Below, in pieces: positions 3,002 to 50,434 of a DNA stretch of 64,000 bases; positions within the stretch are counted from its first letter, which is position 1, and each line of letters opens with the position of its first letter. The stretch covers positions 22,757,456 through 22,821,455 of the forward strand of contig OZ024879.1 in assembly GCA_964017185.1 (NCBI GenBank), given 5' to 3'. Under the pieces are notes generated by a model. That model saw only the letters and a list, made by a program, of their open reading frames with translations, did not search any database and had not been told where the DNA came from. Origin of the DNA: Rugalucina vietnamica (taxonomy: Eukaryota > Mollusca > Bivalvia > Lucinida > Lucinidae). Both the position numbers and the translations under genes were made by a program.

Positions 3002-3796
3002 CAGATCCTCCTCCCTATCCGCTTTTGCATATATACCGTCTGGTTCGGTGCGAGGTTGGCACTCTTAATTAGGGCAGACATGGATCGGTTCAGTGAGGTA
3101 TGGTTATGACGTAGAAGGTCTGTGGCCAGTTGAATAGAAGAGAAAAGCTGTCACAATATACATGATAGAACTTGCTGAGGAGGGTTTGCTGATGAGAGCA
3201 GTTGGCGGACAATCCAATGGCTGAATGCTTCTCCTGGAGGTGCTTGTACTTATCGGCGACCCCTGTATGGTATACATTGTAGGATATAGTCAGTTGTTGC
3301 CTCCACCAGTAGCCAAAGCTTGATCCCAAATTTGGAGTGTTTTGTCGGTATGTACCGAGACATCGCACTTCGTGACCTGGTACCTATAAGACTTTCGTCG
3401 ACGGAGAGCTGCCGAGACGGAGTATAGGCACTGTGACCTCATGTTAAGATGGTCGATGACTGGCATGAATTTAGCTGCAGGATTATATCCTGGCTGATTG
3501 CGTGCTGGAAGGATCGAGTTGTCCACAACATGTAAGAACTTGAGCAGTAACTGGAACCTATTTCGACTGAACACACGCCTGAACCACGGGTAGACTGGCT
3601 GGCGCTTGTTGTCCTCCAGTACTGCAAAAATATTCGGCTTTTTGTTGAGATCCATGTTGAAGATTACTGCCACAAACCCCTTAAACTCTCTCAACGTTAT
3701 TCTTCCCACTCGAAACCATTGGCGCACTCTCGACTGCGGAACAAGTCTGTCTCCAATTTGTCTACAATACTGAGTGGCATATCTGAAAGTATACAA
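3002..3796 (-). pseudogene. piggyBac-like transposase relic, copy 1
   Basis: The minus-strand frame 3796-3290 reads SRVRQWFRVGRITLREFKGF, then a conserved NRFQLLLKFLHVVDN stretch and KFMPVIDHLN, as in the DDE_Tnp_1_7 (piggyBac) family. The reading then continues in another frame with FGYWWRQQL and YHVYCDSF, matching the family's C-terminal catalytic half (usual form CDNFFTS). There are at least two frame breaks: one after the GGGNN stop at 3290 and one in the A-run near 3145, where copy 1 has one A fewer than copy 2. The first catalytic region is poorly preserved. It is a fragment of a family usually about 500-600 residues long, and non-functional. Confidence 0.8.
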
Positions 3797-24785: not shown

Positions 24786-26689
24786 ATGCCTTCACGGAAA
24801 AAGCTTAAACTTGCCCCCGGTCTCAACCAACGAACCATTACAAGCATGCTTCCTGTAAAGGACGGCCATTCCTCCGATATTCTAGACATTTCTACCCCAA
24901 ATCCCACAAGTGTCACTGATGAAACTGAAAATGTTGTCGATATGACCGAGGATAAAGAGTTGAATGATGATCCGTCATCTGAGGTCAGAAAATTCCAACG
25001 TCAGTGGTTGCAGTTGCACCACTGGCTTCGGTATGACCCCCAAGGAAAACAAAATGTACTGTAAACTCTGTATCGAGTCAAAATTAACAAATGCCATGAC
25101 AAGGGGCACTCAGAATTTCAAAACATCTACTCTCACCAGACATATCTCCAGCGCTGATCATTCCAGGGCGGTTGAGGCGCCGAAACAGCGCAATGATTTA
25201 AAAACAACAGCGGAAAAGGCCCTAACAAAGGAGGAAGAGGCTGTTGTGGTGGCCATGAAGGCTGTTTTCTTTCTCGTGCAGGAAGATCTGCCATTATCCA
25301 AGTACACAAATCTAATTAACTTTCTGAAACATTTAAATACCCCGTACGTTGAACACTTGCAGGTGAATGACAGAGTGGACTATACCTCGCCTTATGTTGC
25401 AAGTGAGATTTTGAAATCTCTTTCTAAAGTAGTGGATAGTCAAATAACAGAGAAAATTAATGCGTTTTCGTCTAATGACGATACTGACAGATGAAAGCAC
25501 AGACATAGTTGTCCACCATAAGCTATGCATCAGCTGTCGAATTGTGGGCCCAGTTTCCTTACAGCCATCAACATATTTTTAACTGATGTACGCCTTGAAA
25601 AGGGAACAGGGAAGGGGATTTATGACCAGATCAAGTTGGAGTTGAAAGTGAGAAACATATCAACTCGAATGATGGGGCTGGGTACAGACGGGGCCTCTAC
25701 CATGACGGGAACAAAAGAGGGGTTTACCGGCCAGTTCTTACGGGATAATCCGCATGTAGTAAACACACATTGTGTGGCCCACCGACTTGCTCTGTGCACA
25801 GAGCAGAGTGCGAAGAAGGTTACTGCCATGGCTGAATATCAAAGAACATTAGAAATGTTATACTATCACTTCAAGAAATCACCAAACAAGATGGACAAAC
25901 TTGAGGTTATTCAGAAGTTGCTTGAAGAACCAAGGTTGCGGTACAGAGAAGTCCATGAAGTTCGTTGGTTAAGTTTCTACGAGGCTCTAGATGCAGTTTA
26001 CCGTACTCTTGATTCGCTTCTCTCATATCTGAGTATTGCATCTGGTTCTGATCCTGCTGCTGCCGGTATCAAGAAAAGAGTTGGTCAAGAACTTTTAATA
26101 TCAATAACCTACTCCATGATGGATATTCTTCAGCCGATTATGAAACTGTGCCTGTTGTTCCAAAAGCGGGATCTTGACATTGGCCTTGTTCAAGTAAGTT
26201 GGATTTTTCACTTTGATTAACAGTATGAAAACACCTAGATATATCGACAACATTTTTTTGTAAAACAGTTGTAAAACTGCTAATATTTAATTTATAAAGT
26301 GCTATATTTTTGTTGTTTTTGCCAAAAATGCCCAAATTGATAAAATATACAGAGAATTTTAGATTTAACTTTTTCAATTGATATGTATTTTTTTAAAACG
26401 TTTTGCTTACATGATAACAAAGTTTGTGGATACAACATTAGAACCACTTTTTTATTATTTTGCTTTCACAGAATTAATATTGGACAAGTTTACAGGTGAG
26501 ACAGTCTTATTGGTGGCTGGTTTAGTAGCAATACTTATAATCATAACCTCTTTCTGCTTTATTCACCCATTACTTCACAAACTAATATTATCTTATATCT
26601 AACATACTAGCTGCTGATTGTTACCTTTTGTGAAAGACAAAAAATCACCTTTAGTCCAGTAGCCATCAGCATAACCTGGAAGATGGTAC

Positions 26690-44530: not shown

Positions 44531-45078
44531 ACCTACATAAATCTCAGGCAAAGCAAAAAATAATTTTAGATGCCTCGGAAATGATTTACGTATCTCAGAC
44601 TCTACTTTGAGGTTTCTCTAAAATTAAATCTCGATTTTGAGAAAATACTTATCGAAAGTTATTTTAGAACATATACTGAGCAAAAGAAGATTTCTGATTC
44701 ACAGAGATTTGGCCATATGTGGTCCTTTCTAGTTTATAAGTAGACCCTCAGCATAGGTTAATCTTTGGCAAGATAAACAATACAATTGTAAATCATCATG
44801 GCAAAAATAACACATGAAACAATAATTGAGGCAATGTAAAATTATCTCACTACAATGTTATCATCAAGAATGCGGTAGAAATAAACATATTTAAATTTTA
44901 CATCAATCCAATGAAAAATAGAAAAAAACTTCCCTGAAGTTTAGTTGTCATACCTGCAGGATATTCTATGGGGTGTACCATCGACAAATTTGACAGACTT
45001 TTGTTTATAATCTTAACATTAACCACCTGCGCCAAAATCATGGTACACCAAAATACTAGAGGAATAGCCTGAACAAAT

Positions 45079-45720
45079 CGTCCCATGAATGCAAGAAGGT
45101 GCTAAGTGCATTTTTTAAAGTTTTGAGAAAACTGATTTTTTTAAATTTTTTCATTACGCAAAAAAGCTAATCAAAATTTAGCTGGGCCATGGTATACATA
45201 TATACAATGTCTAAATTTTATGAGATTTGCTTTGATTGGGCTCTTACAGAACAAGAGATATGTAAGGAAAAGTAGTTACCACCTATTGGACAACCCCTTT
45301 GTTTCAAAACAATTACCTGCAAGAAAGGTATAAGTGCAACTAGAACCTTTTTGCAGGAACAAGCTGCATATTAATAACAACAATTTGTTCTGCAAAAAGG
45401 TGATATGTGCATTTAGAACCTTTTTGCGTGAATGAATATAAAAAAAATAGAACATTCTTTTCCTGTAGTAAGGCGGTATCTTAACATAGAACCTTCTTGC
45501 TTGAATGAATATACAAAATGAAAGGCAATTATTTTATGCAGTAAAGTGGTATCTTAGCATAGAACCTTCTTGCATGCATCAGATATAACCATATATGTTT
45601 ACTTTAAACGGCAATAAGGTTCTACATGCTTCTTAGCACCTTATTGCAGTAAATGAATCCTTCAATGTCTACATAACAGAGTCCATCAGAAGGTGACGCA
45701 TTTTATGAATTATAAAGAGT
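45079..45720. repeat. Left TIR and subterminal palindromic modules
   Basis: The motif GCAAGAAGGTgctaAgTGCA and its inverse recur: CTGCAAGAAAGGTATAAGTG...AACCTTTTTGCAG (45319), CTGCAAAAAGGTGATATGTG...AACCTTTTTGCG (45399), and AACCTTCTTGC at 45490 and 45560. GCAATAAGGTTC...CACCTTATTGC lies at 45609-45655. These are plausible transposase-binding sites. Confidence 0.8.
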
Positions 45721-45991
45721 TTAGCGATTGGGTGATATCTTAAATACAAATAAGAATGGAGGTCATTATTGGGCTACATTTTAATCTACTAGTATAAACT
45801 ATAAAGCTACGATTTACGCAAAATACATTCTAATGCATGCTAAAGGTAACTATTCCTGTCTGATAAGCTTTACATCGCAGTCATTTTTCTGTAAACTGGC
45901 ATGAACTGAATTTCCGAACAGTGGAATATTCTGAATGTAGTCATTTTTGTTCTTGAATGTCCAGTCCTCGAGATTATACTTGTCATTTTAT

Positions 45992-48900
45992 TTAGTCACT
46001 GTCCGTATCAGCATCCAAATCATCGTCAACTGTGTCATGTACTGTTTTGTCACCTAGAAGTCCTTCATAATACGGGTGATGTTCTTCTGGAATACAACCA
46101 GACTTACACAATGACATCAAATCATTCTTTTTAGCTTGTGACACACGAAGCTTGCTTTCATATAAGGAGCTAATTTGAAGTCCTTTCTTCCCTCGTTTAG
46201 GTTTTGTCTTCACCTTCATTTCCGTGAAACAGTTTTTGTCGTAAGTGTAATTGACAAATACACTGTCCGGGTCTGTCTTTCGGTACTGTAGCCATTTCAC
46301 CTTCAGCCAATTTACAGATTTCCCATTAACATCGACCTTCATATTGTTGCATTGGTCTTTTTTGAGCTTTTTGAGGTCTTTAAACTGATCATACTTCAAT
46401 GGAATTACTATATATGGGTCCCGTTTCCTTGCCATGTTTATAACAGTAGCCCACTGGGATGGTACAAAGATAGATGTGCACTTCTTTGCTTGCTCAATTG
46501 CTGAGTGCATCGAATCTGCCTCCATCTCTGAGTGCTCTCGCTCAAAAAATTTCTGATTTATTATTTCAATTTTGCTGTTAACGTTTATAGCATATAACAG
46601 AGCTGACGATACAAATTGATTTCGATTTTGTCCTCCACAGATGTCTGAATAAAACGGTATTTCTTTTATGGCAGATGTATGGCCAGAAAGTCTAGAAATG
46701 TACATTAGCAAACAACTTCCAATTTCTGAAGATCCTCGTCCACCTTGGGATTCATCCCACAAGTAGCATATACCTTTTCTGTCACCAAGGGAGTAGAATG
46801 TAAGATTATAACATGATAGTTTCCGTTTATAATAAAACTCTCCAACTAGACTACATGGGGTTGACAATACTGCTTCCAAATCAAATGTACATGAGTGAAA
46901 ACTTTTATCCTCCCTGGCTCTTTTCTTATCTCTGCCTTTTTCATCTCGGGCCTCATCTTTACGTTTCAAGTGTTCTTTATAATCATTTTCCATCTCTGGA
47001 GTCCGAGTACCATTCATTTTGTGTTGCAGATAAAGTGTACAGAACGAGCACTGATCCTTCTTAGGTTTGTGAAAGGAATAATTGTAATTTTCACAAAAAA
47101 TGTTTCGATATACTTTTTCACTGACATGTGTTCTCTTTTCAGTCTTACATTTTTCCTTGTACATTGTGTACATTTTTGTAATGTTCAAATCTCCGTTTAA
47201 ATATTGTCTTTTTGAAGTTTTCCTTGTATAGTGTGACTCAACAGTGGGAAAGCTTTCTATGTGTTCACGAACAAAGTTAACTGTTTCTTCTGATGTTTTA
47301 TTTTTTGACGGTTTTTTCCCTCTCAAATCAGTTCCTTGAAAAGTCCCATGTTGCTGCTTCTTCAGTGCATAATCAACTGTCTTCTTGCCAATGTCCAGGG
47401 TTCTAAGAAAGAATGATTTACAAACACGAATAGTGGACTGTTCTATCTTAAAAGAAAATTTGGCCGATATTGCTCGTCTTCTTGGTGTGCTGCTGGATCG
47501 TTTTACATCCGATACAGTGATATTCTGACAGATAAATTCTCTCTGAAGTGCATAGTTTTCTTTCCCCCAGTATGTATCAAATAAAGACTGGCGCTGCTCT
47601 TCACTTATTTTCATAGAACACTTAAACTTACAGCCAGAACAGTCAATTGGCTTCAATGTCCTTTTTGGAACCTTTTTGCCAGAACTTGAGATGTATTCTT
47701 CCCCAGCACAACGACGCTTTTTGTTCTTGTTTCGTTTCCATTCGCCTTGATTGGACTTGCGCTTACGACTCAATTGTTTTTTCTCAGGCGAAATGTAATT
47801 TGCACTTTTATGTGGTGTAAATACACAATTGTCTTCATTTGTTTTAGTTTTTTCTGGGGTTTGTTTCTCTGTTGAGGCATTAGATACTGAAACATTATCA
47901 TCCAAATTCGCGCTGGCATTTCTTACGGCATCAAAGTGTTCTGTTCCATGTACTGCCAGTAAAGCTAAAAACAGTGTTTCTCCCCTCTGTAACGAAATGT
48001 CAGGCTCTATATCATACACTGGATTAGACAATTTACTGGAGTATGTACGAATAGGTCTTTGCAATTTGTTTGATATTGATAGTGGTAAACAATCGCCAAG
48101 TTCAGTATTCCATTTTCCATCTTGCTTAAGTTCATCTACACTTTTGCTGAAAAGTTCATTTTTCTGACTTTCATCTGCTGATTCTGGAAACTGTAAAAAG
48201 TTCATGTAGTGTTGTTTGTGTTCAAGCAAATGTTCAGAGACTGTGCTTCTTAACTGTTCAGGGGAAACAGTCTCTTCAAGTTGAATACACACAGCTTTCA
48301 TTAGGCAGTTTCCATCTGCTTTCACTTCATGTCTGGTTAGTCCATTGCTAGCCAGTAGGTTGTTAAGCCTCGTATTGTGCAGCTTTTTAAGAAAGTTCAA
48401 TAAATTATTTTCTTTTCTACTGGCTGATTTAGCCCTTTCAATATCACCATTAGAATTGTGTACCGTCCTTACGAAAGGTGCTGATTTTCTCGTTTTAAGC
48501 AAAGGTTTGGTTGAACGTGGTGGTAGTTGTATTTTGCGCCTGGCAGTACGTTTCTTGGCTGCATTCAACTTTTCGTTCAGACTAGGTTTTAATACTGTTT
48601 TGTTCCTCTTGTTTGTCCTATTGGTTTTCACTTTTTTTTCCTTTACGCTTCCAACCTTTATCTCGTAAGCTATTTTTGATAAGCTCACTCAAAGGAATTG
48701 AGTCTTCGTCACTTTCAGATTCCCTTTCTGACTGATTTGATAGAGTTTGATTTTCAGAGTCGCATGAGTTGATATCTTTTTTATTTGGCTTAAATGTTGC
48801 ATCCAAGGTTGAATCGTCACTATCATAGTCCTTTTCTGAATCCTCAGCTGGTGTAAATACCGACTGTTTTGCAGCTGGACCTATTTGATTTGGCTTAGCA

Positions 48901-49106
48901 GTTGTACATTTAGTTTCATTGTTGTCACACTCACTGTTGTTGTATCTGTCCTGTGATGTCGTAGTTTGCCCTGTGTTCTTTAACGTTTGAGCTTCAGAAT
49001 TGGTCTGTTTAGTGGTATTCTCTGGTTCAGTATTTGCAGCTGCATCCAGCAGACTGATGTCAGTATAATAAGTCGACTCAGGATCAGACCAATCAGCATC
49101 CGACAT
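45992..49106 (-). CDS. OTU-like protease / candidate DDE transposase
   Basis: Start Met at 49106 lies directly after an acceptor-like TTATTTCAG, suggesting a 5' UTR intron. The first ~162 residues are acidic (MSDADWSDPESTYYTD). The frame shifts by one at an A8 run (48632-48639) into an 898-residue open frame ending at 45992. There an OTU-like domain has KADGNCLMKAVC (Cys128) and EHFDAV (His251). A basic linker with KKKRRC and a CSGCKFKC cluster (350-357) follow. The C-terminal region has CTFDLEAVL (D603), FYSDICGGQNRNQF (D682) and HSEMEADSMHSAIE (E723/D725), arranged like an RNase-H-fold DDE/D triad. The tail is acidic. From memory the C-terminal half resembles metazoan DUF7869 proteins. The catalytic roles are inferred. 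Confidence 0.75.
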
Positions 49107-49644
49107 CTGAAATAATATGCCATAGGTAAGAATATATTGGTGCATTGAAACGCAAAACCTTCATAACCTTAAGTCCAAGCTAAACACTTTATTATATGAT
49201 GTGTTTGTTAATATATCTAGCATCTTGTTCAAGTGCAAGGTACATGAATGATTTATAAGAAGTGAAAAAGTATTTACATACATATATGTAATCATATTCC
49301 TACACAGCCAGCAGTTCAAAGAAAGAGCTTAGTTGAACAAAATTGGGGATTATTCTAAACAAATTCTTATATCTAAAATTTCAACGAATTAGCATTTCTC
49401 TTTTTATTCCCATTCCAATGAAATAAAATGTGCTTACTTTGATTACTGTAAAACTCTATTTTCCACAGTACCAATCCTTTGTTTCCTCCTAAACTACTCA
49501 GCATAAACTGATAAAGTTATATCTTTACACCTCTGAAGGCAGCAATGTTTATTGCTAGTACACACATGTGTTATCTATAATCAGATTACGCTTTCAAGGA
49601 AATACCTCCTTTTTGCACTGAAATAAATATACAAATACACCTAG

Positions 49645-49904
49645 ACAGCACTCTGCAAGAAGGTGATAACTGCCATTTGGAACCTTCTTGCAGACTGTAG
49701 AAAGCACATAGCACCTTTTTGCATGACTTTTTCTGGCAATGGAGACTTACCCCCTTTGGTCTTCGTGCAATAACTTTACAACCAATAATGCCACAATGCT
49801 AAGCTTTTGATTATCAGCTGGAGAAAAAAATAAGCTATAATAATTTATAAAAAAACGATTTTCACAAAAAAGTGCATTTAGCACCTTCTTGCATTCAGGG
49901 GACG
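49645..49904. repeat. Right subterminal modules and TIR
   Basis: CTGCAAGAAGGTGATAACTG...GAACCTTCTTGCAG at 49652-49693, CACCTTTTTGCATGAC at 49707, and the terminal AGCACCTTCTTGCATTCAGG. Same modules as the left end, in inverse order. Confidence 0.8.
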
Positions 49905-50434
49905 AAATTTCAGAATTATTGAACCAATGGTCTCAGACGAGTTGTGTTCATAAGACTACAATACTAAACATCAAAAGACGGAGACAGGTGGAAATTCGCA
50001 GGCCTATGTCGCCCATGCTTAAGGTGGTGCGGCATAAAATGATAATGGGAAAATTTATCTACATGTATCTATGCCATCTTGCCTAAACTTTCATCAACTT
50101 TAAAATGAAAAATTTTATCAAATAATGTTTATGTTGCAAATGTAGTCATTTGTTTTCAAAACTAGTACCAGATTGTTATCTGTGTCTTCATTTATCACAA
50201 CCAAATTGCTTAATTCAAAGCTTGAGAATTTCTCATACTGTATATGGCATCAAACAGTTAAAAAACTATTATTTTCAGAAGTAATTTTTTCTTGTATATC
50301 TGCGAAAAATCAGTTTTCTCTTTGATGTGACAGCTTATTAAATTACTTTGAAAAACATATAAAAAGGGAATTCCTTGTCCAGCATTCTCATAAAGTCTTG
50401 ACTAAATCTTGTAAACTGACTAAAACTTGCAAAC

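Follow-up and report, generated by a model that had tools for sequence, protein, structure and literature searches.

An OTU domain joined to a DDE-type transposase in a DNA transposon of the lucinid bivalve Rugalucina vietnamica

What kind of mobile element encodes an OTU-type protease domain together with a DDE-type transposase, and what might the protease do there? The question is raised by a locus of the bivalve Rugalucina vietnamica, which lies in a 64,000-nucleotide stretch of contig OZ024879.1 (assembly GCA_964017185.1, positions 22,757,456 to 22,821,455; hereafter the window) and which a first-pass annotation, made from the letters alone, had described as an apparently complete transposon. 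The identification of this locus as a DNA transposon that encodes an OTU domain and a DDE-type transposase is supported by its sequence, by the predicted protein structure and by three more copies in the genome (Table 1). Beyond this, we think it reasonably likely that the element is a cut-and-paste transposon with a transposase of the DUF7869 lineage, probably belonging to Sola as a branch or standing close to it (Sola2-like), and that the OTU domain at the N-terminus acts as a deubiquitinase and protects the transposase.

The inverted termini and the flanking AAAT duplication noted at first pass both hold up. The arms of the terminal inverted repeat (TIR; 45078-45116 and 49867-49905) are 92% complementary over 39 nucleotides, one base of which belongs to the duplication, and their inverted-match score of 33 exceeds all those obtained from 200 dinucleotide shuffles of both 300-base end regions (mean 10.5, maximum 15). 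The subterminal structure claimed as palindromes is likewise present, in the form of repeats of the inner part of the TIR: the element contains 17 sites that match, with at most four mismatches, a 15-nucleotide motif derived from its own TIR. One hundred shuffles yielded 1.6 such sites on average and never more than 6, and the window outside the element (59,174 bases) has seven. Two of the 17 occurrences are the TIR sites that supplied the motif, and 15 fall in the end regions 45090-45648 and 49603-49893. These repeats are likely binding sites of the transposase.

Table 1. Features of the element, in window coordinates (TSD, target site duplication; ORF, open reading frame; aa, amino acids)
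Feature	Position	Strand	Basis or detail
Whole transposon	45079..49904	.	4826 bp; TIRs and TSD; second copy with the same ends
Left TSD, AAAT	45075..45078	+	Read from sequence
Right TSD, AAAT	49905..49908	+	Read from sequence
Left TIR, starts CGTCCC	45079..45116	+	Inverted-repeat search; shuffle control
Right TIR	49867..49904	-	Inverted-repeat search; shuffle control
Left subterminal repeats of inner TIR motif	45317..45648	.	Partly in 73-bp tandem array
Right subterminal repeats of inner TIR motif	49603..49723	.	Motif count
898-aa ORF: OTU domain, zinc-binding-like segment, RNase-H-fold transposase	45992..48688	-	ORF list, Pfam, models, alignment
175-aa ORF, other phase, with the family's acidic N-terminus	48618..49145	-	Join to 898-aa ORF broken
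OTU-fold domain, residues 96-262	47903..48403	-	Cys128 codon 48305-48307; His251 codon 47936-47938
Zinc-binding-like segment, residues 542-573	46970..47065	-	P542, D545, C547, C550, H573 invariant in 61 of 61 rows
RNase-H-like catalytic core, residues 600-735	46484..46891	-	Predicted fold and alignment
Catalytic-type codons	D603 46880-46882; D682 46643-46645; D725 46514-46516	-	Alignment

A DNA search of the 1.09-Gb assembly (47 contigs), whose copy counts are lower bounds, recovered at least one further copy of the window family (G000:C11:17542757-17552940; L009/L010), with identical outer termini and an ATAT duplication. It differs from the window element by 20, 14, 11 and 8 substitutions in its several pieces, about 1% of 5379 aligned columns, and spans 10.2 kb with inserts (three additional segments, roughly 2.0, 1.3 and 1.5 kb long, along with several small length changes). 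Beside the first added stretch, this copy repeats element positions 1858-2380. Two weak DNA matches, on contigs C17 and C12, led to surroundings that hold a sister family (L011 and L012), the elements of which measure 4653 and 4654 bp, are 98.7% identical across 4671 columns, bear the TIR CGTCGGTTGAGAGCATAAAGGTGCCAACTGCATTTTT and are flanked by GGTT and ATTT. Each has a single open frame on the minus strand, of 1075 and 1072 amino acids; the encoded proteins share 46.5-46.6% identity with window residues 83-898, and L012 retains all 13 of the OTU, zinc-like and catalytic positions checked. The dN/dS of the sister copies is 0.0055/0.0077, with 19 of 1071 codons differing, too few to judge selection. 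Both families have CGTC at the outer ends and a similar inner motif, and TIR length is 37-38 nucleotides across the elements read. Exact 4-bp duplications, differing in sequence, adjoin constant ends in all four of these elements; copies lacking the termini or the duplication, which the first-pass annotation had said would count against it, are absent among those read. None of the pattern-matching stretches in the genome-contig set (34) or the viral-contig set (49) was confirmed as a relative.

The protein-coding part was described too strongly as one long gene in an apparently complete element. The N-terminus characteristic of the family, MSDADWSDPES, starts at about 49106, inside the 175-aa ORF, which runs in a different phase and overlaps the 898-aa ORF. 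Because many relatives share an MSDWSD-like start that is read in one frame with the rest, the GTG listed as the start of the 898-aa ORF is unlikely to be the true one. The frame joining N-terminus and transposase is unbroken in the sister family and in the relative P0024 (73% identical to the query across 64% of the query), which reads through the break; the second copy of the window family has a 20-base length difference and an in-frame stop at this very point. The window copy, a decayed member of its family, is thus unlikely to be autonomous. Its residue 718 (46535-46537), which adjoins the third catalytic region, is Glu, whereas Gly occupies this position in 60 of the 61 aligned rows.

The OTU-type Cys/His pair proposed from the letters is borne out by a Pfam match of residues 123-219 of the 898-aa ORF to OTU (PF02338, E 1.3e-8). 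A homology search found 638 proteins, and many of the 120 listed carry OTU, DUF7869 or both; we aligned the window protein with 60 of those 120. In this alignment, 55 of the 61 rows fill the OTU columns, three of the 55 being OTU-less, and among the 52 OTU-bearing rows the catalytic Cys128 is kept in every one and His251 in 51. The best fold matches of the predicted structure are deubiquitinases, with the domain sharing 24% and 19% identity in the aligned part with OTUD3 and yeast Otu2, which are deubiquitinases and not proteins of transposons. Sequence profile, predicted fold and catalytic residues all mark the domain as an OTU cysteine protease, and because the Cys and His are so consistently retained it is likely to take ubiquitin off the transposase or proteins close to it.

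The proposed D...D...E/D arrangement is also upheld: D603 and D682, numbered as at first pass, are invariant in all 61 rows together with D725, and in the models read they sit on a predicted RNase-H-like fold. D725 is the likely third catalytic residue, though not proven to be so, because E723 is equally invariant (61 of 61). The conserved residues of the segment preceding the core suggest that it may bind metal. The transposase part of the window protein matches no Pfam family, and neither the 898-aa nor the 175-aa ORF has an integrase, helicase or Rep family match in Pfam up to E 1. A sequence-profile search of solved structures returned no relatives of the transposase, viral structures gave no match at E <= 0.001, and no NCBIfam families were found for the three proteins scanned.

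The wider protein family gives this transposase a context. A second homology search, with an OTU-less sea urchin protein as query, found 297 proteins, 120 of them listed. For a second alignment, a piece of the window protein was combined with 71 of the 120 proteins listed by the first search. At E <= 0.01, 60 of the 72 members of this alignment match DUF7869 (PF25273, described as of unknown function) and 11 match OTU, many members being pieces without the N-terminus; these proteins are thus the same family as DUF7869, although the window's own transposase part, unlike those 60, draws no Pfam match. We found no mention of DUF7869 in the literature searched.

To place the OTU domain on trees of the transposase part, its presence was scored with a profile made from the columns of residues 96-262 in the first alignment, five rows judged OTU-less being omitted, a mildly circular procedure; rows that lacked an OTU match and had fewer than 440 residues ahead of the core were left unscored (46 of 114 in the first tree, 85 of 187 in the second). 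In the first tree, built from 111 of the 120 listed proteins, the window protein and two sister frames, a single change explains the 62 OTU and 6 OTU-less rows, the 46 short rows aside. The second, with all 184 listed proteins of both searches, the window protein and the two sister frames, requires three changes for its 79 OTU and 23 OTU-less rows; a branch with support 99 misplaces just one row of each kind. Among 36 organism-named rows, whose phyla follow general taxonomy, OTU is present in all 12 scored mollusc rows and absent from all eight scored echinoderm and insect rows, 12 further animal rows being too short for scoring; it is found in two of the four rows from metagenome-assembled genomes (MAGs) of bacterial symbionts, the other two being unscored. 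From this pattern the host of the window element would be placed among the molluscs. P0016, P0032, P0073 and P0150 are family proteins whose records name bacteria (MAGs of Sedimenticola and Thiodiazotropha), and such bacterial-labelled proteins are most likely host DNA within symbiont assemblies.

To which superfamily, then, might the element belong? Among transposons, an OTU domain has been described in Ginger1 (PMC2836005) and in Helentrons (PMC9741609). Ginger1, whose listed hosts include the mollusc Aplysia, shares with the window element a DDE-type transposase, an OTU domain and a 4-bp duplication; however, it is described as having CCGG or CCGT/ACGG duplications, TGTNR ends, a Gypsy-integrase-like transposase and a C-terminal OTU domain (PMC2836005), whereas here the duplications are AAAT, ATAT, GGTT and ATTT (none of the four of Ginger1 type), the ends are CGTC in all four elements, the OTU domain lies N-terminal to the core and integrase matches are lacking in the Pfam search above, making a Ginger1 identity very improbable. 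Helentrons and Helitrons likewise encode deubiquitinase-type domains (OTU or VTD), and VTD-bearing Helitrons, 121 of them additionally with OTU, have hosts that include molluscs; these elements depend on a rolling-circle RepHel protein (HUH endonuclease and helicase) and have no DDE transposase (PMC9741609). They too were rejected, given the lack of Rep or helicase matches to the two ORFs and the presence of TIRs and 4-bp duplications. The piggyBac and Kolobok families duplicate TTAA, which flanks none of the four elements. Sola, in contrast, offers a closer parallel: it is described as having a DDD transposase, a 4-bp duplication, TIRs of 11-1124 bp and a size of mostly 2-9 kb (PMC10741241), Sola2-type elements of slime moulds have AWWT duplications and also ATAT, AAAT and ATTT (PMC3627910), and a bivalve survey lists 14 curated Sola2 elements (PMC10294476). 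The DDD core, duplication length, TIRs and sizes of the present elements fit this description, and three of their four duplications equal those published for Sola2-type elements; this likeness is one of descriptive features only, as no Sola-labelled sequences turned up in the databases used, and Repbase entries under Sola names could include elements of the window type. The element thus works like a cut-and-paste Sola-type element, with Sola membership being probable but unproven. Its OTU domain appears to set it apart: the word does not occur in PMC3627910, nor do the Sola passages of PMC10741241 mention such a domain. The GGTT duplication of one sister element, which lies outside AWWT, weighs against a Sola placement. 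The first-pass remark that the element could not be matched to a named superfamily is accordingly weakened by the features shared with Sola, GGTT apart. A rival reading is that the elements form an unnamed DDE superfamily separate from Sola, with the OTU-bearing mollusc elements as one branch and OTU-less echinoderm and insect relatives as others, for which GGTT, the silence of the literature on DUF7869 and the profile searches (only DUF7869 or nothing relevant in Pfam and NCBIfam, no solved relative) all speak; given the agreement with Sola in the features listed, we regard this as possible and rather unlikely. A broader form of the idea, which we advance still more hesitantly, is that of a large, unnamed, non-Sola DDE lineage of animals, in which a mollusc branch gained the OTU domain in what was about a single event and has retained the catalytic residues of the domain since, yielding a transposase able to defend itself against the ubiquitin system of the host.

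Returning to the favoured reading of a Sola-like cut-and-paste element, the transposase would bind the TIRs and the subterminal motif copies, and its DDD core, the fold of which is predicted, would excise the element and join it to the target, where a cut with a 4-base stagger would give rise to the 4-bp duplications observed. The N-terminal OTU domain would deubiquitinate the transposase or host proteins around it and so keep the transposase from destruction or silencing, akin to the protection of transposition proteins proposed for Helitron-encoded VTD deubiquitinases (PMC9741609). The domain might instead serve to bind proteins, or might act as a protease on the fusion protein itself and so free the transposase, since a substrate cannot be read from a fold and, at the time of PMC9741609, transposon OTU domains had seen no activity tests; the near-universal retention of Cys and His and the deubiquitinases at the head of the fold matches make this improbable. 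Its low DNA-level copy number (itself a lower bound) and its broken frame might suggest that the locus is a gene or pseudogene of the host whose inverted repeats arose by chance. The second copy and the sister family, however, have precise ends and duplications that differ, and these independent insertions rule that reading out; with the shuffle controls for TIR and motif also opposed, we accord it next to no probability.

These observations connect members of the unnamed family DUF7869 with mobile elements whose ends are defined, and they point to a DDE transposase lineage that has retained an apparently intact, N-terminally fused OTU domain. This would be the third union of OTU with a transposition machinery, after Ginger1 and Helentrons. 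Direct control of transposition by ubiquitin thereby becomes a testable question, for which the sister family, with its open frames and near-identical copies, provides material.

Elsewhere in the window, a 168-aa ORF on the minus strand (3290-3796) matches DDE_Tnp_1_7 (PF13843, E 2.3e-11) and is probably a piggyBac-type remnant. A 176-aa ORF on the plus strand (24964-25494) matches PF25431 (E 8.5e-13), a probable zinc finger of the C17orf113 type.
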